Part shown: positions 1,827 to 17,700 of the stretch, piece by piece
Layout: the number at the start of each line of letters is the position of its first letter
Numbering within the stretch: the first letter of the stretch is position 1
Source: a virus
Reading direction: 5' to 3' (one strand)
IMG/VR virus record: IMGVR_UViG_3300033149_004276
Location: 1 to 20,581 of that record
Length of the DNA: 20,581 nt
Program-made: the position numbers and the translations under genes
Notes under the pieces: model-generated
What the model was told of the DNA's origin: nothing
Seen by the model: the letters and a program-made list of their open reading frames with translations, nothing else
Databases searched by the model: none

Positions 1827-1911
1827 GTGGCAGGGCCGCCGCGACTCTTGTCGCCGGCGATTGCAATCGCGGCGATTGGAAGTGGCAAGGCCACCGGCGA
1901 TTGGAAATCGC
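1827..1911 (+). repeat. Double-hairpin elements, first cluster (one variant and one canonical copy)
   Basis: The canonical copy is 1882-1911: hairpin 1 is GTGGC-AAG-GCCAC, then CG, then hairpin 2 GCGAT-TGGAA-ATCGC. Before it, 1827-1854 has GTGGC-AGG-GCCGC (one G-T wobble) and GCGAC-TCTT-GTCGC. Next comes an extra hairpin GCGAT-TGCA-ATCGC (1857-1870) and a half copy GCGATTGGAA (1872-1881). The stems keep pairing while their bases change, which points to a structured nucleic acid rather than simple repeats. The cluster lies in the non-coding stretch after the TerS-like gene; 1740-1826 and 1912-2019 show no further gene. Confidence 0.85.
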
Positions 1912-2019
1912 ATCGCTTTGCAGGATCAGTAAACAAAACACGGGGTTTAGGCCATGCTTAGCACCGTTTCGTTCGTCAAAATGCAGGATATGCTGCTAGG
2001 AACCGCAAGGAGGGAATGC

Positions 2020-2049
2020 ATGGCAAGGCCATCGGCGATTGGAAATCGC
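2020..2049 (+). repeat. Double-hairpin element containing a start codon
   Basis: Hairpin 1 is ATGGC-AAG-GCCAT, a compensatory change from GTGGC/GCCAC. Hairpin 2 is the canonical GCGAT-TGGAA-ATCGC. The first three bases are the likely ATG of the small ORF ending at 2280, with AAGGAGGG (2007-2014) at good distance. Confidence 0.85.
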
Positions 2050-2280
2050 ATAGTGACCACATGCAGCGCGGCGAGGCCCCCGACGATTGGAAATCGCGCC
2101 GCCGACGATTGGGAATCGTATCGTGACGACTGGGGGTCGTATGATGGTTGGTGGTTCCGGCTTGCTGATATTGATGCGGTGAAGCGTTACTTTGGTGGTT
2201 GTACGATTGTGCTCAAATCCGGCAACACGGTTAGTCTACAGGGTGAGGAGGCCGACAGGTTTATGGCCGACTTGACATAG
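2020..2280 (+). CDS. Small ORF largely built from palindromic elements (86 aa)
   Basis: The ATG at 2020 is chosen because AAGGAGGG (2007-2014) is spaced 6 nt from it; an in-frame ATG at 1954 exists without a ribosome binding site. The first half is element-encoded (MARPSAIGNRIV, then ARPPTIGNR, DDWESY, DDWGSY). Residues about 44-86, from WWFRLADIDAVKRYF through GNTVSLQGEEADRFMADL, look like an ordinary small alpha/beta protein unrelated to the repeats. It may be an older small gene whose 5' end was overwritten or extended by element insertion. The function is unknown. The stop codon is immediately followed by another element at 2281. It could also be non-functional. Confidence 0.45.
   Translation: MARPSAIGNRIVTTCSAARPPTIGNRAADDWESYRDDWGSYDGWWFRLADIDAVKRYFGGCTIVLKSGNTVSLQGEEADRFMADLT
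2068..2140 (+). repeat. Degenerate double-hairpin copy plus two second-hairpin copies
   Basis: 2068-2097 is a full-length copy with one mismatch in each stem (GCGGC/GCCCC and ACGAT/ATCGC). 2105-2119 is ACGAT-TGGGA-ATCGT and 2126-2140 is ACGAC-TGGGG-GTCGT, both with fully paired covarying stems. All three are read through in frame by the ORF 2020-2280, giving the repeated peptide DDWESY/DDWGSY. Confidence 0.8.
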
Positions 2281-2308
2281 GTGGCAGAGCCACCGACGGT
2301 TGAAACGT
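2281..2308 (+). repeat. Double-hairpin element, diverged copy
   Basis: GTGGC-AGA-GCCAC is followed by CG and a diverged second hairpin, ACGGT-TGA-AACGT (4 of 5 pairs, short loop). It starts directly after the TAG at 2278-2280. Confidence 0.7.
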
Positions 2309-2376
2309 GAATAAAAGTCACGAGTAAATGCGTATATATAAGTGAAGAGTTTCTCTGGACGTTTTCACCACGCTGT

Positions 2377-2406
2377 GTGGCAAGGCCACCGGCGATTGGA
2401 AATCGC
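2377..2406 (+). repeat. Double-hairpin element, canonical copy
   Basis: GTGGC-AAG-GCCAC, CG, GCGAT-TGGAA-ATCGC, identical to 1882-1911. It lies in the gap between the small ORF and TerL. The AT-rich stretch 2309-2376 before it holds no gene that I can support. Confidence 0.9.
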
Positions 2407-2433
2407 AACGTAGAGATATTCTCCTGGCCTTCC

Positions 2434-2463
2434 GTGGCAAGGCCACCGGCGACTAGAAGTCGC
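2434..2463 (+). repeat. Double-hairpin element with covarying second stem
   Basis: Hairpin 1 is canonical. Hairpin 2 is GCGAC-TAGAA-GTCGC, where a T-A pair of the canonical stem has become C-G on both sides. Confidence 0.9.
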
Positions 2464-2490
2464 CCAGAATCCCCCCTACTTTCCCCCAAC

Positions 2491-2521
2491 GCGGCATTTG
2501 CCGCCGACGATTAGAAATCGT
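2491..2521 (+). repeat. Double-hairpin element abutting the TerL start codon
   Basis: GCGGC-ATTT-GCCGC, CG, ACGAT-TAGAA-ATCGT: both stems are changed in a compensatory way and fully paired. The last base is immediately followed by the TerL ATG at 2522. No Shine-Dalgarno sequence lies between, so the second hairpin occupies the place where ribosomes would bind. Confidence 0.9.
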
Positions 2522-3844
2522 ATGGCAGAGTTAGCCCTTTGGGACATTCCGCTGGAGCTCAAGGAAGCCTTATGGGCGCACAGCGGTTACGTTCCCACCC
2601 CCGAACAACTAGCTGTCCATGCGGACAACTCCAGGATCAAGCAGGTCGTTGGCGGAGAGCGGGCCGGCAAGTCTCGCCTGACCGCCGAGGAGCTGTACTG
2701 CTGGGCCACCTACGATCCGGGTCTCTACTGGATTGTAGGCCCGGACTACGATCTAGCCAGACCGGAGTTTGAGCACCTGGTCAGGGCTTTGGGAGTACAG
2801 ATCAAAGACCTCTCTCAGCCGAAAGCAGGCTCCTGGGAGCTCAAGACCCACCTCGGGTCCCATGTAGTTACGAAGACCTCCACTGATCCTATGTCCCTGG
2901 CCGGGCGTGCTCCCAAGGGCATTGCTATGGTGGAGGCCGCCCAGCAAACCTACGAGGCCTTTCTGAGGGTACGGGGGCGGGTGGCCGAGACCCGGGGGCC
3001 GCTGATCCTTTCCGGGACTCTGGAGGGTGTCGCCTTCGTATCTTGGTATCACGACCTGTACAGGCGCTGGCGGGCCGACAACCCTGACGACGCTCGTTCT
3101 TTCTCCATCCCCACCTGGTCCAATACTGCCATTTTCCCCGGCGGCAGGGATGATCCCGAGATCAAGTCTCTGGAGGCCACCTACCCTCGGGACGTGTTTC
3201 TGGAGCGGTTCGGGGCCGAGCCCTCTATGCCTCTCAGTCTGGTCTTTCGTGAGTTCAGCCATCCGGAGCACGTTCAGACCTGCGTTCTCGACAAGAAGGA
3301 GGGTGTTCAGCTCTGGATAGACCCCGGATATGCGGGGGCTTACGCAGTGCTGGCCGTGCAGGTTCGGGACGAGCACGTGTACGTGCTGGACGAGGTTTAC
3401 GAAAGGGGCCAGACCGCACACCAAGTCATTCAGGAGTGCAGGAGCCGCCCCTGGTGGAAGTATGTCAAAGCCGGGGTGATAGATATTGCCGCCAGGCAGC
3501 ACCACGGTCAAGAGTCCCAACTGGAGATATGGGCGCATTTGACCGGCCTCCGACTCCATTCCCAGAAAGTCCCTATTCCCGATGGCATTCTCCGTCTCCG
3601 AACCTTCCTCGTTGATCCCGAGACCGGGAAGCCCCGCATTACTTTCGACCCGAAGTGTGTCAACACTATCCGCGAGTTTGCCCTCTATCGGTACAAGGAC
3701 GCAAAAGAGGGCCGCCCCATCTCAGAAACCCCGATTAGCGCCGACAACCACGCGATATCTGCTCTCATTTACGGCCTGGTGTCTAACTTTGGCTTTGTGC
3801 GGCTTCGCCGTGAGCGTATACGGGCCAGGATCAGCCGTAACTAA
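2522..3844 (+). CDS. terL: Phage terminase large subunit (ATPase and nuclease)
   Basis: TerL is the motor that translocates DNA through the portal and cuts the concatemer. The 440-residue length fits the family. The N-terminal ATPase has a Walker A motif GGERAGKS (residues 44-51) and a Walker B-like segment GIAMVE (133-138, with E138 as likely catalytic glutamate). The C-terminal RNase H-like nuclease shows WIDPGY (D268), VLDEVYE (D290/E291), GVIDIAAR (D321) and ADNHAISAL (D408). ATG 2522 is preferred over the in-frame TTG at 2498, which lies inside the preceding palindromic element. Neither has a clear ribosome binding site, which is odd for an essential gene. TerS-like protein lies upstream and portal downstream, the standard packaging order. 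Confidence 0.93.
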   Translation: MAELALWDIPLELKEALWAHSGYVPTPEQLAVHADNSRIKQVVGGERAGKSRLTAEELYCWATYDPGLYWIVGPDYDLARPEFEHLVRALGVQIKDLSQPKAGSWELKTHLGSHVVTKTSTDPMSLAGRAPKGIAMVEAAQQTYEAFLRVRGRVAETRGPLILSGTLEGVAFVSWYHDLYRRWRADNPDDARSFSIPTWSNTAIFPGGRDDPEIKSLEATYPRDVFLERFGAEPSMPLSLVFREFSHPEHVQTCVLDKKEGVQLWIDPGYAGAYAVLAVQVRDEHVYVLDEVYERGQTAHQVIQECRSRPWWKYVKAGVIDIAARQHHGQESQLEIWAHLTGLRLHSQKVPIPDGILRLRTFLVDPETGKPRITFDPKCVNTIREFALYRYKDAKEGRPISETPISADNHAISALIYGLVSNFGFVRLRRERIRARISRN

Positions 3845-3866
3845 GCGATCTTTGCGGCCTTGCCGT
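3845..3866 (-). repeat. Degenerate reverse-oriented double-hairpin element
   Basis: Immediately after the TerL stop, GCGATC begins as in the intact reverse copy at 12745, which also directly follows a TAA. Hairpin 1 is present as GCGGC-CTT-GCCGT (one wobble pair), but the second half of hairpin 2 is missing. It sits head to head with the forward copy at 3868-3897. Confidence 0.6.
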
Positions 3867-3867
3867 G

Positions 3868-3897
3868 GCGGCAAAGCCGCTGACGATCACGAATCGT
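3868..3897 (+). repeat. Double-hairpin element upstream of the portal gene
   Basis: GCGGC-AAA-GCCGC, TG, ACGAT-CACGA-ATCGT: both stems are fully paired, with changes from the canonical copy on both sides. The portal ribosome binding site AAGGA (3899-3903) begins two bases after the element, so this hairpin lies directly against the initiation region. Confidence 0.85.
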
Positions 3898-3908
3898 GAA
3901 GGACCACC

Positions 3909-6104
3909 ATGAGTGACGAATACCCCGATCTGGACGCCCTGAAGGACCGCCTGAGGTCAGACTGGTCGGAGCGGGACCGCGTTATCAAGGAAATGCGCTC
4001 TCTGCGCTTTATGGAGTGGGAGCCAGAGGTCCCCGTAAGCATGGAGCCGGAGACGGTGAGATCGCCGATTGCTCACCAGATCGTGGAAAGAATGACCGGC
4101 ACACTGACGGCCAACCCCCCAACCATCACAGTTCCCCCTGCTGACGAGACCCAGGATGCCAGGGAACGATCCTCCAAGATGGAGAAGTTCCTGGCAGCGG
4201 GTATGCACAGGTTGCAACAGCAGTCGGACCAAGATGTCGTAGATCGGTTTATCGAGTCGCTCATCGCCGATGGTCACGGTTGTATGCGGATGCTCTATGC
4301 GCCGCAGCTGTGGCGCGGTTTCCCCCGCAAGACCAAGGATGAGGAAGACCGCGAGTACAACAAGCGGACCGAGATATGGAAAAAGGGGCGCTCCTTGCCG
4401 ATTGCCTGGAACTGGGTAGACCCCCTTACTGTATATCCGCTGTACGGCGAGTTCGGGCTCTATGGCGTTCTGGAGATTGACGAAAGGGATCTTCTCACCC
4501 TCCACCCCGACAAGTGGAACATACAGAAGCCCGATTTGGAAAACCTATCCCGGCTCAACCGACGTAAGGGCACCTCGGTGGAGTTCGCTCAGTGGTGGAC
4601 TCCAGAGACTCTCACCTACTGGGTGGAGGGGGAGATCGTCCATCATCAGAAGCACAAGTACGGTGCTCCGCCCTATGTCTATGCCATGGGACTGGGCGCT
4701 GCCAGTACGGACCCCAAATACATGGGCATGTCCTGTATCTGGCCCATTCGGGAGCTCATTCCCTACCTGGATCGGCTGCTTTCCCAGAAGGCCACGGCTA
4801 TTCGCATGTGGTGTTGGCCCACCGTGGTGGTCAGGCAAACGAACTTGAGCGATCTCATTGGCGCTGGGGAGGGGGAGACTCCGCTTAGGGAGATAAACAT
4901 TGCTCCCGGTTCTACGGTAAGTCTCTACCAGGATGAGGAGATCAGCTTCCTGACCTGGCAGGGGAACGGCCCCGATGCCGACGAGATGGTCCGGCTGGTG
5001 ATGTCCATGATCGAGCGGGCCGGGCTCTCCGATGCCATGTACGGACAGTCTGCCGGCGAGTCGGGCTATGCACTGAACCAACTCATCGCCGCAGCCCGGA
5101 TGCGCTTCAAGCCCATCATCGCCCACGCGGAGCGGGCTCTGGAGATGCAGATGGAGGTGTTGCTGGACATCATCGAGAATCACGCCAAGCAGAAGCTCTA
5201 CGTCTACCCCCGTGGGGAAAAGGGATGGATCGGTCTGGGTCCGGACGATATCAGGGGCTATCGCCAGGTTCGGGTAGAGCTGAACCCGGTTATGCCTACC
5301 GACGCCTATGCCAGGAGCTCCCAGGCTATCAACGAGGTGAACGCGGGACTTCGGAGCCGCGAGTCGGCCATGGAGATGATCGACATTCCCCAGCCCGATG
5401 AGGAGATGCGCCGCATTCTGCTGGATAAGTGGAAGGCTGATCCCAAGGTGCAGCAGTGGCTCATAGACCAGGCTCTCAAGAAGGCCGGAATCATGCTCTC
5501 CCAGGGCGATATGACTATGAGCCAGATACAGAAGGCGTATCCCGATATGCCCCCAGGATTGCAGCAAGCGGTATCGGCCAGGTTGCAGGCCAGCGCCCCT
5601 CCGGGGATGAGCGTACAGCAACTGGGCATGAGGGAGCCTCCGCAGGGTGGATTTAGGCCCGGAGAGTCTCCCGGGATTGAGCAGGCCGGAATACCCATGG
5701 GGCTACCAATGGGACAACCAATGGGACCACCAGTGGGGTTTCCAAGCGGCCCGGTAGCCATGGGTAACCCCCAGGAGCTGGTACAGCAGTATGCGCAGCT
5801 TGTTCAGGTGCTGGCCCAGAGGATGGGGATAACCGAAGAGCAACTGGTGCAGTGGCTCATTCAGCAAGCTCAGCAGCTGGGTATCCCGTTGCAGCAACTT
5901 ATTCAGCAGTTAGCGGAAAGGATACTGGGCGGCGCTACGCCCACCGCCACGGGACAACAGTTTCGTGGGGCTGGGCCGCAGGTGATGGCTACACCCGGGG
6001 TTAGGGCTACGCCACAGCCAGCTCGCGTAGGCAGAAGAGTGATGCCAAGTGGCATTGCTACAGGAATGGCACCCGCAGCAAAGCGCAGAGGAATAGAGTC
6101 CTAG
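3909..6104 (+). CDS. Phage portal protein
   Basis: The portal forms the dodecameric ring at the capsid vertex through which DNA is packaged and ejected. The 731-residue length is close to P22-type portals. The N-terminal region (residues about 1-120) with SPIAHQIVERMTGTLTANPP resembles the start of this family. The middle (about 130-480) is the mixed core, including AGLSDAMYGQSAGESGYALN, typical of the portal clip/stem region. Residues about 590-620 are a Pro/Met/Gly-rich repeat (GLPMGQPMGPPVG), followed by Gln-rich helices (about 620-675), a plausible barrel-like C-terminus. AAGGA precedes ATG 3909. The stop overlaps the next start by one base. The last codons (AAKRRGIES) recur in degraded form at 6314-6364. 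Confidence 0.88.
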   Translation: MSDEYPDLDALKDRLRSDWSERDRVIKEMRSLRFMEWEPEVPVSMEPETVRSPIAHQIVERMTGTLTANPPTITVPPADETQDARERSSKMEKFLAAGMHRLQQQSDQDVVDRFIESLIADGHGCMRMLYAPQLWRGFPRKTKDEEDREYNKRTEIWKKGRSLPIAWNWVDPLTVYPLYGEFGLYGVLEIDERDLLTLHPDKWNIQKPDLENLSRLNRRKGTSVEFAQWWTPETLTYWVEGEIVHHQKHKYGAPPYVYAMGLGAASTDPKYMGMSCIWPIRELIPYLDRLLSQKATAIRMWCWPTVVVRQTNLSDLIGAGEGETPLREINIAPGSTVSLYQDEEISFLTWQGNGPDADEMVRLVMSMIERAGLSDAMYGQSAGESGYALNQLIAAARMRFKPIIAHAERALEMQMEVLLDIIENHAKQKLYVYPRGEKGWIGLGPDDIRGYRQVRVELNPVMPTDAYARSSQAINEVNAGLRSRESAMEMIDIPQPDEEMRRILLDKWKADPKVQQWLIDQALKKAGIMLSQGDMTMSQIQKAYPDMPPGLQQAVSARLQASAPPGMSVQQLGMREPPQGGFRPGESPGIEQAGIPMGLPMGQPMGPPVGFPSGPVAMGNPQELVQQYAQLVQVLAQRMGITEEQLVQWLIQQAQQLGIPLQQLIQQLAERILGGATPTATGQQFRGAGPQVMATPGVRATPQPARVGRRVMPSGIATGMAPAAKRRGIES

Positions 6105-6310
6105 TGAAAGCACAGCGCGCCCTGGCCTGGATCGAAGCTGACGACGATCACCTCCCCGAGGATGGACAAGACGTTGTGGTACAGACCTTCGAGGGGGATG
6201 AATACGTACTGGACTACGACGGCAGCGACCTAGATAAAGGCTTTATGGTGGAGTGGGAGCATGTAATGCGTTGGCGTCCGGCCATCGACGAGGACTACGA
6301 GGGGTGGTGA
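6104..6310 (+). CDS. Small acidic protein, translationally coupled to portal (68 aa)
   Basis: The GTG start at 6104 shares its first base with the portal TAG stop. AGAGGAA inside the portal tail serves as ribosome binding site. The product is very acidic (DDDHLPEDG, DYDGSDLDKG, DEDYEGW) with a central beta pattern VVVQTFEGDEYVLDYD. No family is recognised. It sits between the true portal end and a duplicated portal tail, which suggests that it arrived by insertion or by a duplication spanning this point. It may be a small virion or accessory protein; an acidic DNA-mimic role is only a speculation from composition. Confidence 0.65.
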   Translation: MKAQRALAWIEADDDHLPEDGQDVVVQTFEGDEYVLDYDGSDLDKGFMVEWEHVMRWRPAIDEDYEGW

Positions 6311-6313
6311 CAT

Positions 6314-6364
6314 GATGCGAGCGGCGTGGCGACGGCAGCTAAGCGCCGGGGCATAGAGAGGTAG
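6314..6364 (+). pseudogene. Orphan duplicate of the portal C-terminus
   Basis: Read from 6314, the codons give DASGVATAAKRRGIER and then TAG. The true portal ends SGIATGMAPAAKRRGIES and TAG. The match is in frame and ends at the same position, but the fragment has no start codon. An in-frame TGA (6308-6310) precedes it, so it is a remnant. It supplies GAGAGGTAGG as the ribosome binding region for the next gene, as the real portal tail does for 6104. Confidence 0.7.
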
Positions 6365-6370
6365 GTACAC

Positions 6371-6697
6371 ATGATCTGTTTGCTGAATAGCGTAACTGAG
6401 TCCAAGAATCGTGTTCGTGTTGGTGTCATTCACTACAAGCCTGAGCGCCTGAGCGCTGGGGTGCGCAACGCGGGCATCATGGTGGACAAGACGGAGGCAG
6501 ACCTGCCGCGACCCGAGCAGCGAAGGGGTATGACGGGGGTGCTCTACTTCAACCCGGCCACTAAGGCGTTCTGGTACGAGTATGTGCCGAGGCCATTGAC
6601 GCAGGAGGAGTTGCTTGAGGACCTTCTGAGCCGGCTTGATGAGACCAATGCTCGATTGGACAACCTGATAGCACGGTTAGAGGCATCACGGAGCTAA
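6371..6697 (+). CDS. Hypothetical phage protein with C-terminal coiled coil (108 aa)
   Basis: ATG 6371 follows GAGAGGTAGG at suitable distance. The centre has TGVLYFNPATKAFWYEYVPR (residues about 54-73), a pattern I associate with small tail-region proteins encoded beside fibre genes. Residues about 77-105 form a leucine heptad helix (LLEDLLSRLDETNARLDNLI), a coiled coil that could oligomerise or anchor a fibre. It ends one base before the first propeller gene's GTG. Its last about 20 coding bases are copied upstream of the second propeller gene, at 8747-8767. The function is not known. Confidence 0.7.
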   Translation: MICLLNSVTESKNRVRVGVIHYKPERLSAGVRNAGIMVDKTEADLPRPEQRRGMTGVLYFNPATKAFWYEYVPRPLTQEELLEDLLSRLDETNARLDNLIARLEASRS

Positions 6698-6698
6698 C

Positions 6699-7545
6699 GT
6701 GACGCGGTATATTTACTGTGGGGGCTATACAACCCAAACGGTCTGGCAGATCGACCCCTCGGACATGTCCAAAGTGGCGGAGAGCGCCGACTATGGGGGG
6801 GCTATCTACGAGCTCACTACGGATGCTAGCTACGTCTACTGTGGGGGCTATACTCAAACGGTCTGGCAGATAGACCCGTCAGATATGTCAAAGGTAGCTG
6901 AGAGTGCTAGCTACGGCGGGTATATCAACGCTCTTGCTACGGACGCTAGTTACATCTACTGCGGGGGGGCTGGAAGCTACAAAGTCTGGCAGATAGACCC
7001 CTCGGACATGTCCAAGGTAGCAGAGAGCGCCGGCTATGGGGATCGGATCGAGGCTCTTGCTACGGACGCTAGTTATATCTACTGCGGGGGTCGCACCGAA
7101 ACAGTCTGGCAGATAGACCCCTCGGATATGTCCAAGGTGGCAGAGAGTGCTGACTATGGCGGGGCTATCAACGCTCTCGCTACGGATGGTACTTACGTTT
7201 ACTGCGGGGGCAATACCGGAACAGTTTGGCAGATAGACCCCTCGGATATGTCCAAGGTAGCAGAGAGTGCCGACTATGGGGATCGGATCTACGCTCTTGT
7301 TACGGACGCTACTTACGTCTACTGCGGAGGCTATATAATCAACAAAGTCTGGCAGATAGACCCCTCGGACATGTCCAAGGTAGCTGAGAGCGCTAGCTAT
7401 GGGCAGACTATCTACGGTCTCGCTACGGATGCTAGTTACGTCTACTGTGGGGGCTATAGCAAAGTCTGGCAGATAGACCCCTCGGATATGTCCAAGGTAG
7501 CAGAGAGCGCTAGCTATGGGGGGACTATCAGCGCTCTCACTGTCA
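6699..7545 (+). repeat. Seven tandem ~120-bp repeats (first propeller)
   Basis: Seven copies share a near-identical core encoding VWQIDPSDMSKVAES. Variation in the core is nearly all synonymous (for example GGACATG/GGATATG, GTAGCAGAG/GTGGCGGAG), while the loop after YCGG varies in sequence and length. Confidence 0.92.
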
Positions 7546-8741
7546 CGAAGCAAGAGGAGGGAGGTGAGGAGGTCTACGCTGACCTCACGCTGAACCGCGT
7601 GATGGCACTTAGCGATACCGGCCAAGCAGATGCGGCGGCTGGTCTGAACCTCGCTCGCACTTTGGATACTGTAAGCGGCCCAGGGGCAGCAGATGCAAAT
7701 GGTCTGGCCACGCTTACACGCCTGCTCGGTCTTGCTGATACAGGGCAAACCGATGCTGAGGGTAGTCTGAGCCTTGCTGCGCTGAGGGCATTGAGCAGCT
7801 TGGGATACTTGGAGGCAAGCCGAGCGGTGACGCTAAGTCATAGCCGCACTGCAACCGCTACAGCCATGGCTGACGGCCAAGGAGTGGTCAACCTGGCGTC
7901 CTCACGAGCTATCGCCGGGGCGAGTGAGGCGCAAGCCGAGGCATATGCAGCGTTGGCGCGGATAGTGGCCCTAAGTTTGGCCCGTGAAGCAACTGTGGAC
8001 CAGACCCTCATGCTGGCGCTTGTCAGGGCTTTGGATGCCGGGGCAGAGGCAGGCGCCCAGGGAGCTAGCGTGCTTTCGCGGGCGCTGGCTCTGACTGACG
8101 CGGCGGAAGCTGACACGGACGGCGTCCTGTCGCTACTGCGCTCACTCGGTGCTGATGCCGCAGCGCTGGCGGACGCAAGCGCGATGCTCACGCTGACACG
8201 TAGTGTGGCAGTGAATGCGCTCGGCGCAGTGGAGGCCGCAGCAGGGCTTACACTGGCCATTCTCCAGGGTCTGGCCACGGTCGCCGACGTGGAGGTCCCA
8301 GGCGCTGTTGATGTCGCTTTGGCGCTCTCCATGGGGCTGGGTTTTGAAGCAACATCTCAGGCAATCGCCGAGGCTGAGGCCGCTCTGGGTCGCTACCTTG
8401 CGATGCTCCTAGAGAGCGAAGCTCAAGCTACTGTGACGGTGAGTCTGTCTCGCAGCGCGGGGCTGGACAGCGAGGCACAGCGTGTTGCAGATACCGAGGT
8501 TGTGTTGGCTGTAGACCTTGGGGCAAGCGCCGGCAGCGAAGCTGTAGCAGACGGTGGGGTTGGCCTCGACCAGGTGCGGGCGGCGTTGGTCGTGGCGCAG
8601 GCCGTTGCAGCAGCTGGGATCGCTCTGGAGGCGATACGCGATATACAGATTGTCCGGGGTGTGCTGCTTGCCACCATCGTTATGCCGGCGAAGCGGACCT
8701 ATCAGGTAGAGGCAGAAAATCGTGCACATACGGTACGGTGA
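6699..8741 (+). CDS. Seven-repeat beta-propeller and alanine-rich stalk protein (680 aa)
   Basis: GTG 6699 follows GGAG at 6690-6693. Residues 4-285 hold exactly seven roughly 40-residue repeats with the core VWQIDPSDMSKVAESA, an aromatic Y(I/V)YCGG start and a variable loop of 3-5 residues between them. Seven such repeats fit a closed seven-bladed YVTN/WD40-like propeller. Residues about 292-645 are about 17 repeats of a 20-residue Ala-rich unit (pattern AxLTLxRxLALxDxGxADAx), probably a helical or fibrous stalk. The end (DIQIVRGVLLATIVMPAKRT) is shared with the next gene. It stops at HTVR, about seven residues shorter than the paralogue. A surface adhesin or receptor-binding tail protein is the likely role; this is inference from architecture and position. 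Confidence 0.75.
   Translation: MTRYIYCGGYTTQTVWQIDPSDMSKVAESADYGGAIYELTTDASYVYCGGYTQTVWQIDPSDMSKVAESASYGGYINALATDASYIYCGGAGSYKVWQIDPSDMSKVAESAGYGDRIEALATDASYIYCGGRTETVWQIDPSDMSKVAESADYGGAINALATDGTYVYCGGNTGTVWQIDPSDMSKVAESADYGDRIYALVTDATYVYCGGYIINKVWQIDPSDMSKVAESASYGQTIYGLATDASYVYCGGYSKVWQIDPSDMSKVAESASYGGTISALTVTKQEEGGEEVYADLTLNRVMALSDTGQADAAAGLNLARTLDTVSGPGAADANGLATLTRLLGLADTGQTDAEGSLSLAALRALSSLGYLEASRAVTLSHSRTATATAMADGQGVVNLASSRAIAGASEAQAEAYAALARIVALSLAREATVDQTLMLALVRALDAGAEAGAQGASVLSRALALTDAAEADTDGVLSLLRSLGADAAALADASAMLTLTRSVAVNALGAVEAAAGLTLAILQGLATVADVEVPGAVDVALALSMGLGFEATSQAIAEAEAALGRYLAMLLESEAQATVTVSLSRSAGLDSEAQRVADTEVVLAVDLGASAGSEAVADGGVGLDQVRAALVVAQAVAAAGIALEAIRDIQIVRGVLLATIVMPAKRTYQVEAENRAHTVR
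7576..8640 (+). repeat. About 17 tandem ~60-bp repeats (20-residue Ala-rich units)
   Basis: The translation can be cut into successive 19-23-residue units such as ADLTLNRVMALSDTGQADAA, AMLTLTRSVAVNALGAVEAA and VTVSLSRSAGLDSEAQRVAD. The units are well diverged in DNA, so they are older than the propeller repeats. The last unit is a half copy that leads into DIQIV. Confidence 0.75.
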
Positions 8742-8767
8742 AGCGCTAGAGCCATCACGGAGCTAAC

Positions 8768-9620
8768 GTGACGCGATATATCTACTGCGCGGGTGAGGCA
8801 GACGCCCCAACAGTTTGGCAGATAGACCCCTCGGACATGCTCAAGGTAAGAGAGAGTGCCGACTATGGTAGCTACATCGACGTTCTGGCTACGGATGCTA
8901 GTTATATCTACTGTGGGGGTTCTATCAAAGTCTGGCAGATAGATCCCTCGGACATGTCCAAAGTAGCGGAGAGCGCCGACTATGGTAGCTACATCTACGC
9001 CCTTGCTACTGATGCTAGTTACATCTACTGCGGAGGCCACGCAACCCAAACAGTTTGGCAGATAAACCCCTCGGATATGTCAAAGGTAGCGGAAAGCGCC
9101 GATTATGGGGGGATTATCTACGCTCTCGCTGCGGATGCTAGTTACATCTACTGCGGAGGCCACGCAACTCGAACAGTTTGGCAGATAGACCCCTCGGACA
9201 TGTCAAAGGCAGCAGAGAGTCCCAACTATGGCGGATATATCCGCGCTCTTGCTACCGATACTAGTTATATCTATTGCGGGGGTTCTACAACTCACACAGT
9301 TTGGCAGATAGACCCCTCGGATATGTCCAAGGTGGCCGAGAGTGCCGACTACGGTAGCGATATTGAGGCTCTTGCTACCGATGCTAGTTACGTTTACTGT
9401 GGAGGAGATAGTTGCACAGTCTGGCAGATAGATCCCTCAGACATGTCGAGGGTGGCAGAAAGTGCTAACTATGGAGATTGGATCTACGCCCTTGCTACGG
9501 ATGGCACTTATCTGTACTGCGGGGGCTACACAAACTCAACAGTTTGGCAGATAGACCCTTCGGACATGTCCAAGGTAGCAGAGAGCGCTACATATGGCTG
9601 GTGTGTCCGCGCTCTTGCTG
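8768..9620 (+). repeat. Seven tandem ~120-bp repeats (second propeller)
   Basis: Same unit as at 6699-7545, seven copies, with slightly more coding change (MLKVRES in copy 1, SKAAESPNYG in copy 4, SRVAESANYG in copy 6). Confidence 0.92.
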
Positions 9621-9793
9621 TCGCACAGTTGAAGGCGGTCTACGCTGACCTCACACTAAACCGCGTACACGATATACAGATTATCTGGGATGTATTGCTT
9701 GCCAACATCGCTATGCCGGCGAACCGGACGTATCGGGTAGAGGCAGAAGATCGTACATATACGGTACGGCGTCGGGAACACTTCATTGCGTAG
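8768..9793 (+). CDS. Seven-repeat beta-propeller protein, stalk-less paralogue (341 aa)
   Basis: GTG 8768 follows the same GGAGCTAAC leader as the first paralogue. Residues about 4-285 again contain seven VWQIDPSDM repeats (one copy is WQINPSDM). After the last blade, ADLTLNRV joins directly to HDIQII and then a tail homologous to the end of the first gene. The Ala-rich stalk is therefore reduced to a single hybrid unit. The tail carries RREHFIA beyond the point where the first gene stops. Loops after YCGG differ from those of the first gene (HATQT, DSCT, YTNST). It may be an alternative receptor-binding head or a short fibre that assembles with the long form. The role is inferred. Confidence 0.75.
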   Translation: MTRYIYCAGEADAPTVWQIDPSDMLKVRESADYGSYIDVLATDASYIYCGGSIKVWQIDPSDMSKVAESADYGSYIYALATDASYIYCGGHATQTVWQINPSDMSKVAESADYGGIIYALAADASYIYCGGHATRTVWQIDPSDMSKAAESPNYGGYIRALATDTSYIYCGGSTTHTVWQIDPSDMSKVAESADYGSDIEALATDASYVYCGGDSCTVWQIDPSDMSRVAESANYGDWIYALATDGTYLYCGGYTNSTVWQIDPSDMSKVAESATYGWCVRALAVAQLKAVYADLTLNRVHDIQIIWDVLLANIAMPANRTYRVEAEDRTYTVRRREHFIA

Positions 9794-9815
9794 ATGCAGA
9801 GAATAAGGAGAGATA

Positions 9816-10322
9816 ATGGAAACGAGGGTAAGGGTCAAGCTGGCCAATCACTTTCGGGTCGAGGCGTGGCGTGGCGACAGGCTACTCTGGGTTGATGAGT
9901 TTGACAACTTGGTGGTCAACGAGGGCCTGGATGACGCGCTGGACAAGCACCTCAAGGGATCGAGTTATACAGCGGCTTGGTATGTCGGTCTGGCCGATGG
10001 TACGCCCAGTTTCGCCGCCGGCGATACGATGGCTAGCCACGCGGGTTGGTCGGAAGTTACAGCCTATGATGAGGCCAACAGGCCGACCCTGACGCTGGGC
10101 ACCGTGTCCGGCCAGTCGGTGGACAACTCGGCCAGCAAGGCAGAGTTCACCATTAGTAGCAATGACACGACCATCGGTGGCGCATTCGTCGTGAGCGATA
10201 ACACCAAGGGCGGGACGACAGGCGTGCTCTACGGCGGTGGCGCGTTCAGCGCCGGTGACAAGACGCTCGACGACAACGACGTGCTGCGGGTGACGGTGAC
10301 TTGCACGGCATCTGCGTCCTAA
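9816..10322 (+). CDS. Probable virion or tail-associated beta-rich protein (168 aa)
   Basis: ATG 9816 follows a strong AAGGAG. The N-terminus (VKLANHFRVEAWRGDRLLW) is strand-rich. The rest has WYVGLADGTPSFAAGDTMAS, TLGTVSGQSVDNSASKAEF and GGAFVVSDNTKGGTTGVLYG, a pattern I recall from hypothetical phage structural proteins found next to fibre-adaptor genes. The composition (Gly, Ser, Thr, Asp rich, beta-prone, no cysteine until the last strand) fits a virion protein. It lies between the propeller genes and an adaptor-like gene, so a decoration or tail-tip role is plausible. No specific function is proven. Confidence 0.7.
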   Translation: METRVRVKLANHFRVEAWRGDRLLWVDEFDNLVVNEGLDDALDKHLKGSSYTAAWYVGLADGTPSFAAGDTMASHAGWSEVTAYDEANRPTLTLGTVSGQSVDNSASKAEFTISSNDTTIGGAFVVSDNTKGGTTGVLYGGGAFSAGDKTLDDNDVLRVTVTCTASAS

Positions 10323-10334
10323 CGGCGGTGTAGC

Positions 10335-10604
10335 ATGGCTCGGACAATGTACAAAGACCCCGACGCCCGACTGGACTATGTTATCGACTGGTCAAAGTGG
10401 CTGGGGGACGACACCATCGTAGATAGCGAATGGATCGTCCCCGACGGCCTGGTTCTCGATGACGAGAGCTTTACTACTAGCAAGACCGTGGTCTGGCTGA
10501 CTGGTGGTACCGCAAAGACCCGTTATGAGGTCACGAACCGTATCACTACGTCAGATGGGCGAATAGACGACCGCACTATTCTTATCTACGTTATCGAGCG
10601 ATAG
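10335..10604 (+). CDS. Phage fibre-tail adaptor-like protein (89 aa)
   Basis: ATG 10335 has a weak GGCGG upstream and lies 12 nt after the previous stop. The sequence KDPDARLDYVIDWSKWLGDD, the IVPDGL segment, the VVWLTGG turn and the end YEVTNRITTSDGRIDDRTIL match my memory of a small phage family with an Ig-like beta-sandwich, described as fibre-tail adaptor (Gp80-like). These proteins connect fibres to the tail or baseplate. Neighbouring putative adhesins support this. Family assignment is from recognition of the pattern, not from a search. Confidence 0.65.
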   Translation: MARTMYKDPDARLDYVIDWSKWLGDDTIVDSEWIVPDGLVLDDESFTTSKTVVWLTGGTAKTRYEVTNRITTSDGRIDDRTILIYVIER

Positions 10605-10629
10605 GGATAGGTGGAGGAGGAAATATCCA

Positions 10630-11457: not shown

Positions 11458-11469
11458 AGGGGTGCGGAT

Positions 11470-11640
11470 ATGCCCTACAAACTAAGCAAAAGCGGCAAGG
11501 CGGTGCTTGTCAAGCGGGGCAATCGTTGGGTTGTGCTGAAGCGTCATCCGACACGAGAGAAGGCGAGAAAGCACGTGGCGGCGCTCAACATAAATGTGCA
11601 CCATCCCGAAAAGGCTCGGAAGAAGAGAAAGAAGAGATGA
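11470..11640 (+). CDS. Small very basic protein (56 aa)
   Basis: ATG 11470 follows GAGGGG. The product (MPYKLSKSGKAVLVKRGNRW then VVLKRHPTREKARKHVAAL) ends in a poly-basic tail, EKARKKRKKR. This layout, a short beta hairpin and a helix that begins TREKARKHV, is common among tiny phage proteins of unknown function. The charge suggests nucleic-acid contact. Its TGA overlaps the next ATG (ATGA). Confidence 0.7.
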   Translation: MPYKLSKSGKAVLVKRGNRWVVLKRHPTREKARKHVAALNINVHHPEKARKKRKKR

Positions 11641-12020
11641 GCGAGCGGAACACTTTCGAGATTCTGCGTGATGCTCTGGTCGAGGATTTGCTGAATACTG
11701 TTGAGGCCATGGTCACTGAGCCGCCTTATGAGAGCGTGAAGCTGACCCAAGACGAGCAGCTAGAGCGTTATGCGAAGTACCGAGATGATCCCCAGCACTG
11801 GGAGCAACTGCTGGACAAGGAGGGGTGGAGCCAGACGATACACGACGCTCTGATTCTGGAGCGTCGGTACAAGGAGCGTGAAAATGCCGAACCCGATTAT
11901 GGACTGGGTTCTGAACGCCTTGAAGACCGGGGGGCTCGACCCGGGAGAGGTGGCGAAGATATTCGACCCAATCCGACGAGCACTGTCCGGGGAGGCCCAG
12001 GCCCTCGCCAATCTCTTTAG
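11637..12020 (+). CDS. Hypothetical acidic protein overlapping the next gene (127 aa)
   Basis: The ATG at 11637 overlaps the previous stop in an ATGA arrangement, which marks translational coupling. Residues 1-80 are helical and acidic (TFEILRDALVEDLLNTVEAM, then DEQLERYAKYRDDPQHWEQL). From about residue 83 the frame overlaps the next gene by 137 nt and reads a Gly/Arg/Pro-rich tail (GARPGRGGED) that looks like a shadow of that gene. The N-terminal part is therefore probably the functional body. The long tail may come from loss of an earlier stop. No family is recognised. Confidence 0.6.
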   Translation: MSERNTFEILRDALVEDLLNTVEAMVTEPPYESVKLTQDEQLERYAKYRDDPQHWEQLLDKEGWSQTIHDALILERRYKERENAEPDYGLGSERLEDRGARPGRGGEDIRPNPTSTVRGGPGPRQSL

Positions 12021-12744
12021 CGGCGCACAAGCCCAGAACATATCTCCTACGCGATTCCCGATTACGCCCGGAGGCGTGGCGGGGTACGAAGGCTCTCGAA
12101 CCACAACCCGTCCGTCCACGCTGGAAGCCACCCGTCTTCAGGCGGGTACGAGTCTCATCCCTGGGGCTAGTATCACGCCGACCGGCGGCGCTTATCCCGC
12201 CACACCCGGCGGCGTGGCGGGATACGAAGCCTCTCGACCCCCTGCTGTGCCGGGCTACATGGATGAGATGGCTTGGATCTTCTTCGGCAAGAGCTATGAC
12301 CAACTGACCCCTGCCGAACAGCAACAACTCCATGCCAAGGTTCAGCAGGCTTACGGCCTTGGTGGTACAACTGGTCGCCCCTACATGGCCGAACTTGCCG
12401 AGCAGCAGAGACAGTTCGATCTCACTCAGCAGTGGCTTAGAGAGCAACTTGCTGCACAGCAGGCTATGGAGCAGGCGGCATTGGCCCAGAGACGTAGGGA
12501 GATGGCTGCCAACCTTGGGCAGGGTATTGCCGGTTTGCAGTCCCAGCAGTGGGCGCAGGCCCTCCCCTATCAGCTGCCTGCTGGCGCTCAATACACCCCG
12601 GGGTACGAGCCTGGTGGGTTGATGTCTCAGATGGCGCGGCAGGCCGGAGTGCGATTTACCCCGGCACCAGTGGCTGAATCACCAGCGCCCACTAGAGAGC
12701 AGATGGAAGCTTGGCTCGCCGATGCCATAGCCAGATTCGGCTAA
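11884..12744 (+). CDS. Gln-rich helical phage protein, possible virion component (286 aa)
   Basis: ATG 11884 is chosen because AAGGAG lies seven bases upstream; a GTG two codons earlier is an alternative. The N-terminus (PIMDWVLNALKTGGLDP, IFDPIRRALSGEAQALANLF) is amphipathic. Residues about 60-120 contain two related segments, PITPGGVAGYEGSR and PATPGGVAGYEASR. The middle is a Gln/Ala-rich helix (LAEQQRQFDLTQQWLREQLA), probably a coiled coil. The C-terminus is Pro/Ala-rich with a final helix. This composition resembles internal or ejection proteins, but no domain is recognised. The stop is directly followed by a reverse double-hairpin element. Confidence 0.65.
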   Translation: MPNPIMDWVLNALKTGGLDPGEVAKIFDPIRRALSGEAQALANLFSGAQAQNISPTRFPITPGGVAGYEGSRTTTRPSTLEATRLQAGTSLIPGASITPTGGAYPATPGGVAGYEASRPPAVPGYMDEMAWIFFGKSYDQLTPAEQQQLHAKVQQAYGLGGTTGRPYMAELAEQQRQFDLTQQWLREQLAAQQAMEQAALAQRRREMAANLGQGIAGLQSQQWAQALPYQLPAGAQYTPGYEPGGLMSQMARQAGVRFTPAPVAESPAPTREQMEAWLADAIARFG

Positions 12745-12774
12745 GCGATCCCCAATCGCCGGTGGCCTTGCCAC
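12745..12774 (-). repeat. Double-hairpin element, reverse orientation
   Basis: Read on the minus strand: GTGGC-AAG-GCCAC, CG, GCGAT-TGGGG-ATCGC. It starts on the base after a TAA stop and sits about 25 nt before the next ribosome binding site. Confidence 0.9.
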
Positions 12775-12798
12775 TATATCTTATAAGAGAGGTTGCGG

Positions 12799-14223
12799 AT
12801 GGATGCGATAACGGCAGGTGGTTATGGATGGTATCAGCCACTCATAAACCAGACGTTGGGCTATCTAGACTACCTGCTATCTCGAGCCGGACTGACCGGC
12901 TATTACCAGGAACCCGAGGTGCCAGCGCCCACGGAGCGCGAAGCGCTCATGGCGATCTGGAATGACAGGCCGGACATAAAGGACTTATACGATAAGAACT
13001 GGGGCGAGGGCCAGTACGCCCCCTGGCGTGCTGTGGCCGACTGGCTGTCCTGGACCCCCGAAACGGAGGTGGAGCAGGCGGGTCGTGACCCTATTCAGTA
13101 TGCCATTTCCTTGGGCCTGATCGAGCCGGGGAAAGAGGCCGGCGAGAAGGAGCCCACCCTGGCCATGCGGCAGTTCGAGGAGGCCCAGAAGGAGTGGTGG
13201 GCGTCTTTTGAGGAGGACCAACGCCGGGCGGATCGGGAGTTCTTACGACAGCAAGGGCTCGATGAGGAGGCTATTCGTCAATATGAGGAAGCCAAAGAGG
13301 AGCGATACTACCGCTACGGCGTCGTTGATGAGCAGTGGGAGAAGGAGTATCTCCGGCAGATTGGCCTCGATGAGGAGGACATTCGGCGCTGGGATCTGGA
13401 TCGGCAGGATCGCCTGGATGCCTTTGCCGAGGATACGCGACGCTGGGAGGCGGAACAGGCCCGCCTGCTGAATCTGGATAAAGAGGACGTTCGGCGCTGG
13501 AACGCCATGTTTGCCCAGGAGCAGCTCAGGGATGAGCGGTCTTGGCAGCAGTGGTCTGACGAGTTCGAGTTCAAGAAGCAGGCCTGGGCGGAGGAGCTGG
13601 GGCTGGAGCGCGAGAAGTTCCGGTTCGAGTCCGGGCTTGCCGAGCGCCAGCAGGAGTTCTACGAGCGCATGGCCGAGCAGGGGTTGGGACTGGATTACCT
13701 CAATCTCTTGTCTGGGCTTCGCGGCCCCCAGGACTGGTTGCGGTACAGTCAGGCCAAGCGTGCTGCCCAAACGACGGAACTGCCGGGCTTTGCTCAATCT
13801 TTCCTCACCGGGCAACCGATGGCCGGCTTCCAGGGAGCGGCTCCCGTTCCCGCAGCTAGTCCCGAGGGGTTACTGACCTGGCAGGAGCAGCTGGCTAAGG
13901 GTCTTGGTGTCTTGCCGGGTGCCGGGGCGCAGGCTGGTCAGGTCGTAGCAGAGCCCCAGCTTCAGCAGCCGGTCTCCACGGCCTGGAACCCCTATACGGT
14001 TCAAGCCCAGCAGCAGACGCCCGCTGATTTCTGGTCGTTGCTGGCCCAGAATCCCCACAAGGTCAGTGCCGCTCAGGTTGCCCAAATGACCCCCTCTGAG
14101 CAGCAGATGCTGGCGGGGGCCGTGGAGAGCTATGGCGGCTGGTGGGAAGACTGGCTACGTGGGCTTAGTCAATCGGCCCCCAGAGGACAGGCTAACCCCT
14201 GGTCTACATGGAGGGGTTGGTAA
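12799..14223 (+). CDS. Long coiled-coil phage protein (474 aa)
   Basis: ATG 12799 follows AGAGG with 6-nt spacing; an in-frame TTG lies two codons upstream. Residues about 1-100 are mixed (TAGGYGWYQPLINQTLGYLD, GEGQYAPWRAVADWLSW). Residues about 115-290 are a long charged helix region with a loose repeat, LDEEAIRQYEEAKEE, LDEEDIRRWDLDRQD, LDKEDVRRWNAMFAQ, spaced 31-37 residues. The remainder is Ala/Gln/Pro-rich with aromatic ends. It could be a scaffold, internal core or ejection protein; the sequence shows only structure type. Its TAA overlaps the next ATG by one base (TAATG). Confidence 0.75.
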   Translation: MDAITAGGYGWYQPLINQTLGYLDYLLSRAGLTGYYQEPEVPAPTEREALMAIWNDRPDIKDLYDKNWGEGQYAPWRAVADWLSWTPETEVEQAGRDPIQYAISLGLIEPGKEAGEKEPTLAMRQFEEAQKEWWASFEEDQRRADREFLRQQGLDEEAIRQYEEAKEERYYRYGVVDEQWEKEYLRQIGLDEEDIRRWDLDRQDRLDAFAEDTRRWEAEQARLLNLDKEDVRRWNAMFAQEQLRDERSWQQWSDEFEFKKQAWAEELGLEREKFRFESGLAERQQEFYERMAEQGLGLDYLNLLSGLRGPQDWLRYSQAKRAAQTTELPGFAQSFLTGQPMAGFQGAAPVPAASPEGLLTWQEQLAKGLGVLPGAGAQAGQVVAEPQLQQPVSTAWNPYTVQAQQQTPADFWSLLAQNPHKVSAAQVAQMTPSEQQMLAGAVESYGGWWEDWLRGLSQSAPRGQANPWSTWRGW

Positions 14224-14744
14224 TGCCCGGCATAAGAGATTGGGTAGAGCGCGCTTTGGTCTCGGCCGCAACAGCTGCCTCTGCGCTGGAGCGGCTGCCT
14301 GGTGAGGGCTATCGGGCTTACGAGGATTGGTTTTATGAAACAACGGCTCCGGGACAGGAGTTGATCGGTGACCTTGTAAAGGCCTGGTATCGTGGAGTGG
14401 CCGATCCTGTAGTAGGTGGTCTTTGGGCTGGCCTTACTGAAGCAAAGCCACCTATACAAAAGGATATCTCCGCGCTGTCTCCTCAGCAGATATATGAGGG
14501 ATTGCAGGGAGGTCGTAGTTATCTGACGCCAGAAGAGAACCGGACATTGTTGGAGTGGCAGCGTCAGCAGGCCCTCGAAGCCCCCGAGTGGTTCCGAGTA
14601 GCGGGGCGTTACTATTACGACCCGTTTATGTGGGGCAACCTTCTGCTGGGTAATGTTTCTCATGTGCTTCGGATTCCCGACTTTTCCGTGCCGGTACTCC
14701 GGGAAATGTTTGAGGAAGAGCGCGAGCTCTCTGGGAGGATATAA
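14223..14744 (+). CDS. Hypothetical phage protein (173 aa)
   Basis: ATG 14223 overlaps the previous stop by one base and is served by GGAGGGG inside the preceding gene's end; an in-frame ATG at 14208 lies within that gene and is less likely. The product has an N-terminal amphipathic helix (IRDWVERALVSAATAASALE), a Tyr/Trp-rich segment (GYRAYEDWFYETTAPGQELI), then ADPVVGGLWAGLTEA and an acidic end. No signal peptide or clear membrane span is present, although ATAASAL and VVGGLWAGL are mildly hydrophobic. No domain is recognised. Its tight position between a coiled-coil protein and the giant protein suggests a shared assembly or ejection module. Confidence 0.7.
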   Translation: MPGIRDWVERALVSAATAASALERLPGEGYRAYEDWFYETTAPGQELIGDLVKAWYRGVADPVVGGLWAGLTEAKPPIQKDISALSPQQIYEGLQGGRSYLTPEENRTLLEWQRQQALEAPEWFRVAGRYYYDPFMWGNLLLGNVSHVLRIPDFSVPVLREMFEEERELSGRI

Positions 14745-14746
14745 CC

Positions 14747-17700
14747 GTGCCGCTGGCCGATTTCTGGCGATACATTCCAATCCGGGAGCACCTTTTCCAG
14801 GAAGAAGAGGAAGAGGAACCCCTGCGGCCCCCGCCTCCCGGTATGCGTCCTCCTGCCGGCATCCCGCCCGGCATAGCTCTCTCGGAGATTGCCACCCCAG
14901 AGGGGATGATCCCCGGTGGTGCCAGGGCGCCGCAGTTACAGCCCACTCCCACTCCGATCCCGACCCCTGTACAACCCGATTCCCAATCGCCGGTGGCCCT
15001 GCCACCAATGCCGGTTCCCGTACAGCCAACACCGGCTCCTGTACAGCCAACGCCCCCTCCAGTAGTACGACCACAACCTGCTCCTGGTCCTGAGACCTGG
15101 GCGCGGGAACCCTCGCTCTGGGAAGCTATTGTGCAATCTGCGGAGGCGGCGATTGAGCCGATAGAGGAGCTTTTCGAGGGTCTACTCGCGCCGCCGGAGC
15201 CCATACAGCCTCCGCAGCCCCAGGAATACCGACGGCCTGCTGCCCCCTTCTTAGAAGAGCTGGCTGCGAGCTACGGCCTAGGTAAAGAAGCCACGGAGGT
15301 CTCTCCGGCTATTACCACGCTGGGGAGTGCGATTCAACTCTACGAAGAGCTTAGCGGACGGCGAACTCCCGAGGAGGTGATCGCTGAGTACGAGGAGAGA
15401 GTCCGGGCGCTGGGTGGCGAGCCCTTGTATGGTCCAAAGCCTACTCGTGAGGAGACTCTGGCTCTCTTCCAGTTGGCCAACGAGCGGGCTCTCTCGGTAC
15501 CCCAAATCGCTAAGATATATCAGCTGGCTGACCAGGCGGGCATGGCCTCACGAGAGTACGTTGCTGCACCCGCAGGTGGAGCCGTGCAGACTGCCATTGA
15601 CATATTACGTGGGAAGATGTCTGTACACGACTTCGCCACGGTAGCGGGGGCGCTGGGCGGTGTTAGCCCCGACCAAGACCTCATCGAGCGGACGGCTCGC
15701 GCACTGGCGGGTGCCTATGCCTATGTGCGTCTCCGCGAGTACGAGATGCCCTGGCTAAGCCGTATTGTCGCAGAGACGACACTCGATCCCTTTGGGCTCG
15801 TTGTGAACTCGTTGCTTTTCGGCTTGAAGCCCACCTCTCGTATTGGTCAGATACTACTGTTCGCATACAAGGCGCTGGACAAGGTGGACTTAGCCTGCAA
15901 CTACGCGACCATGACTCCCGAGCAGTTTATGACTGCCATGGCCTTCAATACTCTGGTCAGGCTGGGCATTGATTTTACTGGCAAGGGTTTGGCGCGGCTA
16001 AGCCAAGAGTGGCAGGGCTTGGGCGATGCTCTGAAGACAAGCCGTAACAGGGCTGAGCTAGAACGCGAGCTTCTGCGCTGGGCGCAGAGGGATATCAAGG
16101 ACGAGATTCTGCGCGGCGTAGATTACGATTCGGCCACAAACATAGGACGGAGCGTGGGGGCTAGTCCTGAGGAGGTGCAAAAGGTTCTGGCGGAGGTCTT
16201 GGCTTCTGAGGGTAAGACTGCCGAAACCTCAAACCCCGCCTTGGCTCGGCGTCTGTGGCTGCGGTTTGCTGGACCCTTGTGGGACTATGGACGCATTCAA
16301 CAAAAGTACGCTCAGGCCATGTTAGAGGGAGCCAAGCGCGACCCGCACACTTTGGACGAGATTGTAGAGGGAGCCAAGCGAGCAGAGATTCCCGGCCGCG
16401 TTGAGGAGACTCTGGAGTACGCTGCCGGTCGTTATCAGCCCTCCATTGAGCGACGCTATCGCCCCGAGGTGGTTGAGGAGCCCAAGCTCCCCACAGAACC
16501 TCCTACAGAGCCCCTTCGTCGTCATGTTGCCCCACGAGAGAGGCGTTGGGGACCAGAGCGCCCTACGCCAAAGCAGTTAGAGGAGACGGTTGAGCCGGAA
16601 GAGGCCATCCTTCGTTTCTGGAGCGAGTTCGGTTACGGGGCTATGAGCCCGGGGGAGTTTATGAAACGCCTCGAGCAAATGGAGGCAGAGATTGAGCCCC
16701 GTTTGCCCGAGGAGCCTCGGCCCGCTGAGACAGGGCGTCCTCCCGAGGAATACCGGCCGTATGGGGAGCCCCCGGAGCTGCAGGCCTATTTTACCGAGGC
16801 GGATATCGAACCCATGAGCCCAGTGGACGCCCGATGGACTTTTGGGACTGATGAGGCATTCCGTTGGCGAGACCGCGGAGATGTTCAGAAGGGCAGGCCA
16901 CTGAACATTGAGGAGGTCCCCGAGGTTGTCTATCACGCAACAGTGGATCTGCCCACCGTGCTCAAGCAGGGCGTCCTGCGAGGCCAAGTCGGTGGCGGCG
17001 GGCTGGGTGGTGGACAACGCTCCGGGGTTTCCGTAACGACGAAAGCCGAAGAGGCTCTACTTATTGTTCGTGAGTTCAGGCGGGCCGCCGAGATCGCCAG
17101 AGGCGGAGATCTGTCCGTACTGCTGCCACAGTGGGCGAGAGAAGACGCCCGGCTTGCCGGCTTGCCAGAAGACGCCCTGGACAAACTCGCTCAGAACTTT
17201 GTCAGAGAGTATCAGTGGCGGCAAAAGGAATACCCACAGTACGGCGCAGATAATGCCTGGACGAGTTATCGAACCTATTTGATTACGCGCCAGAGTGCTG
17301 GCGGGCCACGTAACCCGATTCTATACGGAACTGTGGAGCAATATGCTGCTCTCGACCCCGAAAAGCTTGGCGTATTGAGCATTCCCAGGGAGAACCTTTA
17401 TGCCTCCGGTGCTCTGGTAGTCCCTCGAGACGATGCCCTAAGCGAAATCCGGGTCTATGGCGATGTGCCGGTCCGCGATGCGCAAGTAGTAGACCTTACA
17501 ACGGGTCGGCCGTTACCTGCTGTAGAAACTCGCCCCTCTGAGGAATACAGGCCCTCCGAGAGACCCTTGGAGACAGAGCCGGAAATGGGTAAAAGACTGC
17601 CCGAGTATCCGTTCCCGCCGGGCGCATATACCCCAGAGGAGTTTGCCCAGATTCTGCGCGATATGGAAGAGCGGGGTCGGTTCCCCATGGGTACGGGCGC

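Follow-up and report, generated by a model that had tools for sequence, protein, structure and literature searches.

A short double-hairpin element recurs in a 20,581-bp stretch of viral DNA (IMG/VR record IMGVR_UViG_3300033149_004276; hereafter the window), and we judge, at a probability of roughly 0.6, that it is a bacterial miniature non-coding palindromic repeat that entered a phage and spread there. Its second hairpin is scattered through some genomes of the class inferred for the host (Chloroflexota) with the same covariation, and the full two-hairpin layout recurs there in small numbers, which supports a bacterial origin; the mixed orientation of the phage copies together with one copy lying in frame within a gene fits an inserting element. 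The window is also contained in a longer contig, IMGVR_UViG_3300033141_003493 (G001, 58,150 bp), at 99.97-99.99% identity except for a 62-bp indel, and is taken to be part of a temperate tailed phage because of the encoded gene set: a terminase small subunit (TerS)-like protein, terminase large subunit (TerL), portal, SU10-like capsid and adaptor proteins, amidase, tyrosine integrase, Rad52-like protein, DnaB and a DNA methylase. Short palindromic repeats have mostly been studied in bacterial chromosomes. About ten related copies, most of them in one small gap, offer a small closed system in which to follow insertion sites, the empty sites of relatives and the covariation of stems directly, and such a phage system could reveal how palindromic repeats travel.

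Layout, folding and covariation of the element

The element is about 30 nt long and consists of a first hairpin (hp1, 5 bp), a 2-nt spacer and a second hairpin (hp2, 5 bp). The original prediction of at least ten full or near-full copies plus partial ones was borne out, with nine full copies, a decayed tenth and several partials at the predicted places, and all of the stem variants it named were found. Its 5-bp hp2 stem holds as a layout, but for several copies six base pairs around a loop of 3 nt (GCGATT-GGA-AATCGC) are the better description. Scores in the following list are those of a covariance model trained on ten copies, the nine full ones among them; scores of the latter range over 38-51 bits.

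1827-1870, plus strand: partial cluster, hp1-like GTGGC-AGG-GCCGC, then GCGAC-TCTT-GTCGC, CG and GCGAT-TGCA-ATCGC (21.9 bits for 1841-1870)
1871-1881, plus strand: half hp2 (GGCGATTGGAA) just before a full copy; direct repeat CGGCGATTGGAA split by hp1 (from the sequence)
1882-1911, plus strand: full copy, GTGGC-AAG-GCCAC-CG-GCGAT-TGGAA-ATCGC (51.3 bits; folded)
2020-2049, plus strand: full copy, hp1 ATGGC/GCCAT (48.0 bits)
2068-2097, plus strand: full copy, hp1 GCGGC/GCCCC with one mismatch, hp2 ACGAT/ATCGC with the outer pair mismatched (42.5 bits)
2098-2119, plus strand: partial, GCCGCCG followed by hp2 ACGAT-TGGGA-ATCGT (23.8 bits)
2126-2140, plus strand (G001 3411): single hp2, ACGAC-TGGGG-GTCGT (pattern match)
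2281-2309, plus strand: hp1 GTGGC-AGA-GCCAC with a decayed hp2 (34.3 bits)
2377-2406, plus strand: full copy, same sequence as 1882-1911 (51.3 bits)
2434-2463, plus strand: full copy, hp2 GCGAC-TAGAA-GTCGC (48.4 bits)
2491-2521, plus strand: full copy, GCGGC-ATTT-GCCGC-CG-ACGAT-TAGAA-ATCGT, abutting the TerL ATG at 2522 (40.6 bits)
3845-3866, minus strand: partial, ACGGC-AAG-GCCGC plus the remnant GATCGC, immediately past the TerL stop (from the sequence)
3868-3897, plus strand: full copy in the TerL-portal gap, spacer TG, hp2 ACGAT-CACGA-ATCGT (38.2 bits)
12745-12774, minus strand: full copy right behind a TAA stop, between the open reading frames (ORFs) 11884-12744 and 12799-14223 (46.9 bits)
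14976-15005, minus strand: full copy with the outer hp2 pair broken, read in frame as part of a proline-rich linker in the frame that starts at 14747 (45.5 bits; translation)

The 782-bp, hairpin-rich gap between TerS and TerL holds 7/10 of the full or near-full copies, and the 64-bp TerL-portal gap consists almost entirely of hairpins. The predicted placement at gaps and gene boundaries is thus seen in this cluster and in the copies that abut codons, but not in the copy at 14976, which lies in frame inside a long reading frame. Outside the window, position 27599 of G001 carries an hp1-type pair and position 36927 a lone hp2; this hp2 is the tRNA arm of the likely phage attachment site (attP) described below. 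A small open frame (1954-2280) spans several of the hairpin copies; hp2 encodes repeated DDWxSY peptides in it, and its 3' half is plausibly coding. No match to the window above the gathering score was obtained with Rfam 15.

Perfect double hairpins of any sequence number 11 in the window, compared with 1.7 +/- 1.6 in order-1 Markov resamples, and the exact two-hairpin fold was recovered for 7 of the 8 copies folded, the minus-strand copy at 14976 dropping its outermost hp2 pair. Among the nine distinct sequences, 4/10 base pairs changed on both sides, while slid controls gave at most one double change; 94% of the cells were paired against 89% upon shuffling, and the covariation score reached 0.217 against 0.140 +/- 0.021, a value attained in 0/500 shuffles. 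The claim that the two sides of the stems change together therefore stands, with the limit that the copies are few and related and hence represent few independent covariation events. Template switching during DNA replication can yield hairpins and compensatory changes without selection on the fold (PMC8794818), so covariation by itself is no proof that the fold is selected; of the original proposal we retain the covarying double hairpin, whereas its step from covariation to a folded nucleic acid that is under selection, or propagates as such, is weakened. A CsrA sponge, suggested by GGA in loops, was considered and rejected: the loops TAGAA, CACGA and TGGGG lack GGA, and two copies lie antisense to the late genes. 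This orientation disfavors a loop-specific RNA function in general.

Inferred host and hairpin repeats of Chloroflexota

Judged by sequence, the likely attP is CACGATTGGAAATCGTGTAGGCGAAAAGCCTCGCGGGTTCAAATCCCGCCCTCTCCG upstream of the integrase, a 3' half of tRNA-Ser(GGA); GTCCACACGAT occurs three times inside it and in its surroundings:

G001 36,798-37,040 (L030:16798-17040), minus strand: likely attP, tRNA-Ser(GGA) 3' half, adjoining the tyrosine integrase

The three GTCCACACGAT direct repeats resemble integrase arm sites. When 301 Chloroflexota genomes were compared with attP, G138 came out best (95%), and within its family (n=15) three genomes (G309, G312, G315) matched at 97%, up to 97% over 58 bp. 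The phage host is probably a Chloroflexota bacterium, and no more than probably, because attP was compared within this phylum alone; the phylum label itself rests on the center genome G002 (Thermoflexus hugenholtzii). Phage and plasmid records queried with TerL, integrase and amidase gave distant matches only and no pointer to a host.

Exploring 298 genomes of the class, we found that a minority hold several copies of hp2 (GCGAYTNGAARTCGC), with 138 in G328, 37 in G507, 35 in G491, 32 in G546 and 21 in G438, whereas the reversed control pattern gave 0-1 in each of these five. Only multi-copy genomes were counted, as many single matches may be tRNA-Ser(GGA) genes. At the T-A/C-G position, 69 of the 73 listed copies from nine multi-copy genomes carry a Watson-Crick pair, as opposed to 53 +/- 3 when shuffled within genomes. 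The copies of G328 read CGGCGATTRGAAATCGC and thus have a flank in common with the phage, i.e. CG ahead of hp2; CG followed by GCGAYTNGAARTCGC with the covarying Y-R pair fits the phage copies 1882, 2020, 2377 and 2434, and the rest diverge at the outer pair or in the loop. The surroundings of bacterial hp2 copies were uninformative in this G+C-rich DNA, 9/18 lying within an open frame of >=150 aa on either strand.

The whole layout (GGC-N3-5-GCC, <=6 nt, hp2) was matched 12 times in 35 bacterial genomes and once by the reversed control. With hp1 placed upstream of hp2 at a spacer of 1-3 nt, one copy is close over its full length, that of G426 (GTGGC-GGA-GCCAC-CGG-GCGAC-TGGAA-GTCGC; 35.6 bits with the phage model), whose E-value of 2.8e-6 refers to 58 kb and amounts to ~0.01 over the roughly 165 Mb searched, in genomes preselected for hp2. 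A related series in G431 has an hp1 ending in CCGCCG and hp2 CCGATTRGAAATCGG. In the family that carries the candidate bacterial attachment site (attB), G307 and G309 harbor 19 and 13 hairpins of type GCGATTGAAATCGC (control, 2 each). The G307 contigs (158 kb, picked partly for containing copies) hold 44 double hairpins compared with 8 in a resample, and GCGAT, GCAGT and GCGGT stems share one TGAA loop. G307 (L160-L167) contains dense mosaic hairpin arrays in which the loops TGAA, CTTC, CAAG and TGCA sit on differing covarying stems. The search pattern GCCRCCGRCGAYTN{1,4}ARTCG matched 6 of the 301 Chloroflexota genomes, not above its reversed control.

Origin of the element and competing explanations

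We infer the identity of the host, the direction from host to phage, the mobility of the element and the enzyme that moves it. The source would be the kind of repeat scattered over chromosomes in the class inferred for the host. One copy of it probably entered the temperate phage, perhaps while the phage was a prophage, and would then have been copied inside the phage genome, chiefly into intergenic places where it is tolerated. Movement or copying would take place in trans, with the element as a hairpin, and the mover may be either a bacterial transposase acting on single-stranded hairpins (Y1/HUH type) or replication template switching aided by phage recombination functions. PF01797 (Y1 transposase) occurs in 7/15 genomes of the attB family, counted per genome irrespective of repeat position. 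The original prediction proposed that many copies in host genomes would mark a host-derived element, and the outcome leans this way; the other outcome it foresaw, confinement to one group of phages or a packaging signal, found no support.

Several observations weigh against an origin in bacterial chromosomes followed by spread in the phage. Target-site duplications are not evident, and the phage ORFs scanned encode neither a transposase nor a REP-associated tyrosine transposase (RAYT). Bacterial copies usually run on into further hairpins that have no counterpart in the phage copies, as seen in G328, and the G426 copy is the sole bacterial one near the phage element over its entire length. Within the attB family the frequent hairpin of G307 and G309 is only a one-base-shorter relative, the 15-nt hp2 pattern of the phage gave 0 matches in the members sampled, and the phage covariance model performed at chance level in the 15 genomes (top match 26.5 bits, E 0.0135 per genome). 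A strict double-hairpin pattern run on GTDB contigs produced 11 matches, all judged to be chance or coding; the Thermoflexus match (L032) and the Chloroflexi match (L040) among them are near-identical, coding-like stretches. Finally, the relatives with empty sites share only 55-57% TerL identity, and the gap differences could have other causes.

These relatives bear on the idea that the copies are phage-specific functional sites, i.e. protein-binding hairpins beside the terminase genes that serve packaging (pac/cos region), antitermination or mRNA processing. The strong clustering between TerS and TerL, the copies touching start or stop codons and the compact, stably folding layout common to the copies would suit such sites. 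However, the element is absent from the TerL relatives L022 and L023, in both of which TerS abuts or overlaps TerL with the inserts missing at the junction; in L023 the TerL stop overlaps the portal start, and L022 has a longer TerL-portal stretch of unlike sequence. Double-hairpin counts in the TerL relatives are close to expectation, and among the IMG/VR contigs searched G001 alone matched the element patterns. The element is therefore not a conserved packaging signal of the TerL group, and since it also occurs in both orientations and within a coding region, with the same hp2 dispersed across bacterial chromosomes of the class, we regard phage-specific sites as unlikely. Neutral expansion, in which template switching duplicated the hairpin pair locally and intra-strand correction kept the stems complementary with neither transposase nor selection, draws on the ability of template switching to make such structures (PMC8794818), on the local position of most copies, on the resemblance of 1860-1911 to an internal 25-nt duplication and on the Rad52-like protein of the phage. 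We give it little credence as a full account, because the oppositely oriented copies at a distance of 10-12 kb, and the occurrence of this sequence in bacterial chromosomes, call for transport and not just local duplication; as the copying step of a bacterial repeat spreading in the phage it is compatible with the reading we favor.

It is highly improbable that the copies mimic the integrase core, with the integrase binding or recombining at hp2 (CGATTGGAAATCG) because hp2 equals the tRNA-Ser(GGA) anticodon arm in the likely attP core. The two agree over 13 nt, an identity shared with the anticodon arm of the inferred host family (L205, L130, L150, L121), one bacterial tRNA-Ser(GGA), that of L205, has exactly GCGATTGGAAATCGC, and the structure of 1860-1911 is compatible with recombination at GGCGATTGGAA. 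Against this, the TAGAA, TGGGG and CACGA loops and the GCGAC stems deviate from the core, and the bacterial repeats vary alike with no integrase known nearby. Since a GGA anticodon loop largely dictates the sequence, this agreement may be coincidental.

If the element is a bacterial repeat, the systems closest in concept are the repetitive extragenic palindromes and bacterial interspersed mosaic elements (REP/BIME), a resemblance that was predicted and that the dispersed covarying double hairpin sustains. REP/BIME comprise GTAG- and CGTC-tagged families of 20-40 bp palindromes, some of them in Chloroflexi, and share with the element many copies, alternative complementary stem residues, clusters and a location mainly outside genes (PMC3733652); in some genomes of the class inferred for the host, the hp2 module matches REP in its high copy number and chromosomal dispersal. 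In contrast to REP/BIME, the phage element lacks a GTAG/CGTC tag (by eye, the copy flanks have no common tetranucleotide) and has two unlike hairpins in fixed order with 5-6 bp stems, in a phage. REPINs, too, are small hairpin DNAs that are non-autonomous and have spread within one genome, mobilized by RAYT (PMC3116915), but a REPIN is an inverted pair of one REP, whereas hp1 and hp2 are unlike and each forms its own hairpin. Rickettsia palindromic elements can sit in frame within genes but are ~150 bp with an ORF (PMC10969869), as opposed to 30 bp, mostly intergenic, with the one in-frame copy at 14976.

Fungal mitochondrial double-hairpin elements have two hairpins with a short spacer and covarying stems and are dispersed, in an unrelated genome and with unrelated sequence. 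Cyanobacterial small dispersed repeats (SDR) are 21-27 nt hairpin modules with compensatory changes that are mobile between places; they differ in sequence and phylum. For SDR, PMC4390886 and PMC3116915 cite Elhai et al. 2008. Insertion into HIP1 sites, as reported for SDR5 (PMC4390886), was not seen here. In the literature searched, neither repeats of this kind from Anaerolineae nor palindromes dispersed in a phage turned up, and the Chloroflexota hairpin family was not described there. Doubtful, yet worth stating, is the wider proposal that a modular covarying hairpin family found across the Chloroflexota class, outside the known REP superfamilies, shuttles between chromosome and phage and multiplies in the phage, with phages as its vehicle.

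Neighboring genes and other repeats

The genes flanking the main cluster were assigned as follows.

1221-1739, plus strand: TerS-like gene (phrog_2538 terminase small subunit, E=1.5e-4; weak Sigma70_r4_2; frame open from 1173)
2522-3844, plus strand: TerL (phrog_2, E=1e-15; Terminase_3C)
3909-6104, plus strand: portal gene (phrog_64 portal, E=1e-11)

Upstream of terS, at 730-1210, lies a degenerate array of GACTTGGAGGATTCGCGGACTTGG-type repeats, the start of which is overlapped by 87 bp (713-799) that recur identically at G001 57534-57620. The genes 6699-8741 and 8768-9793 encode about a dozen propeller-like 40-residue repeats (WQIDPSDMSKVAES...YIYCGG), and the frame from 14747 contains repeated RPxPAVAERPxPELGE-type segments at 18062-19417. 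The 62 bp of the window without counterpart in G001 are 10336-10397, where a small ORF begins. Close to either end of the 58-kb G001 contig are hairpins of the GGGGTTAT-N-CCCC type, at 47, 1150 and 56896.

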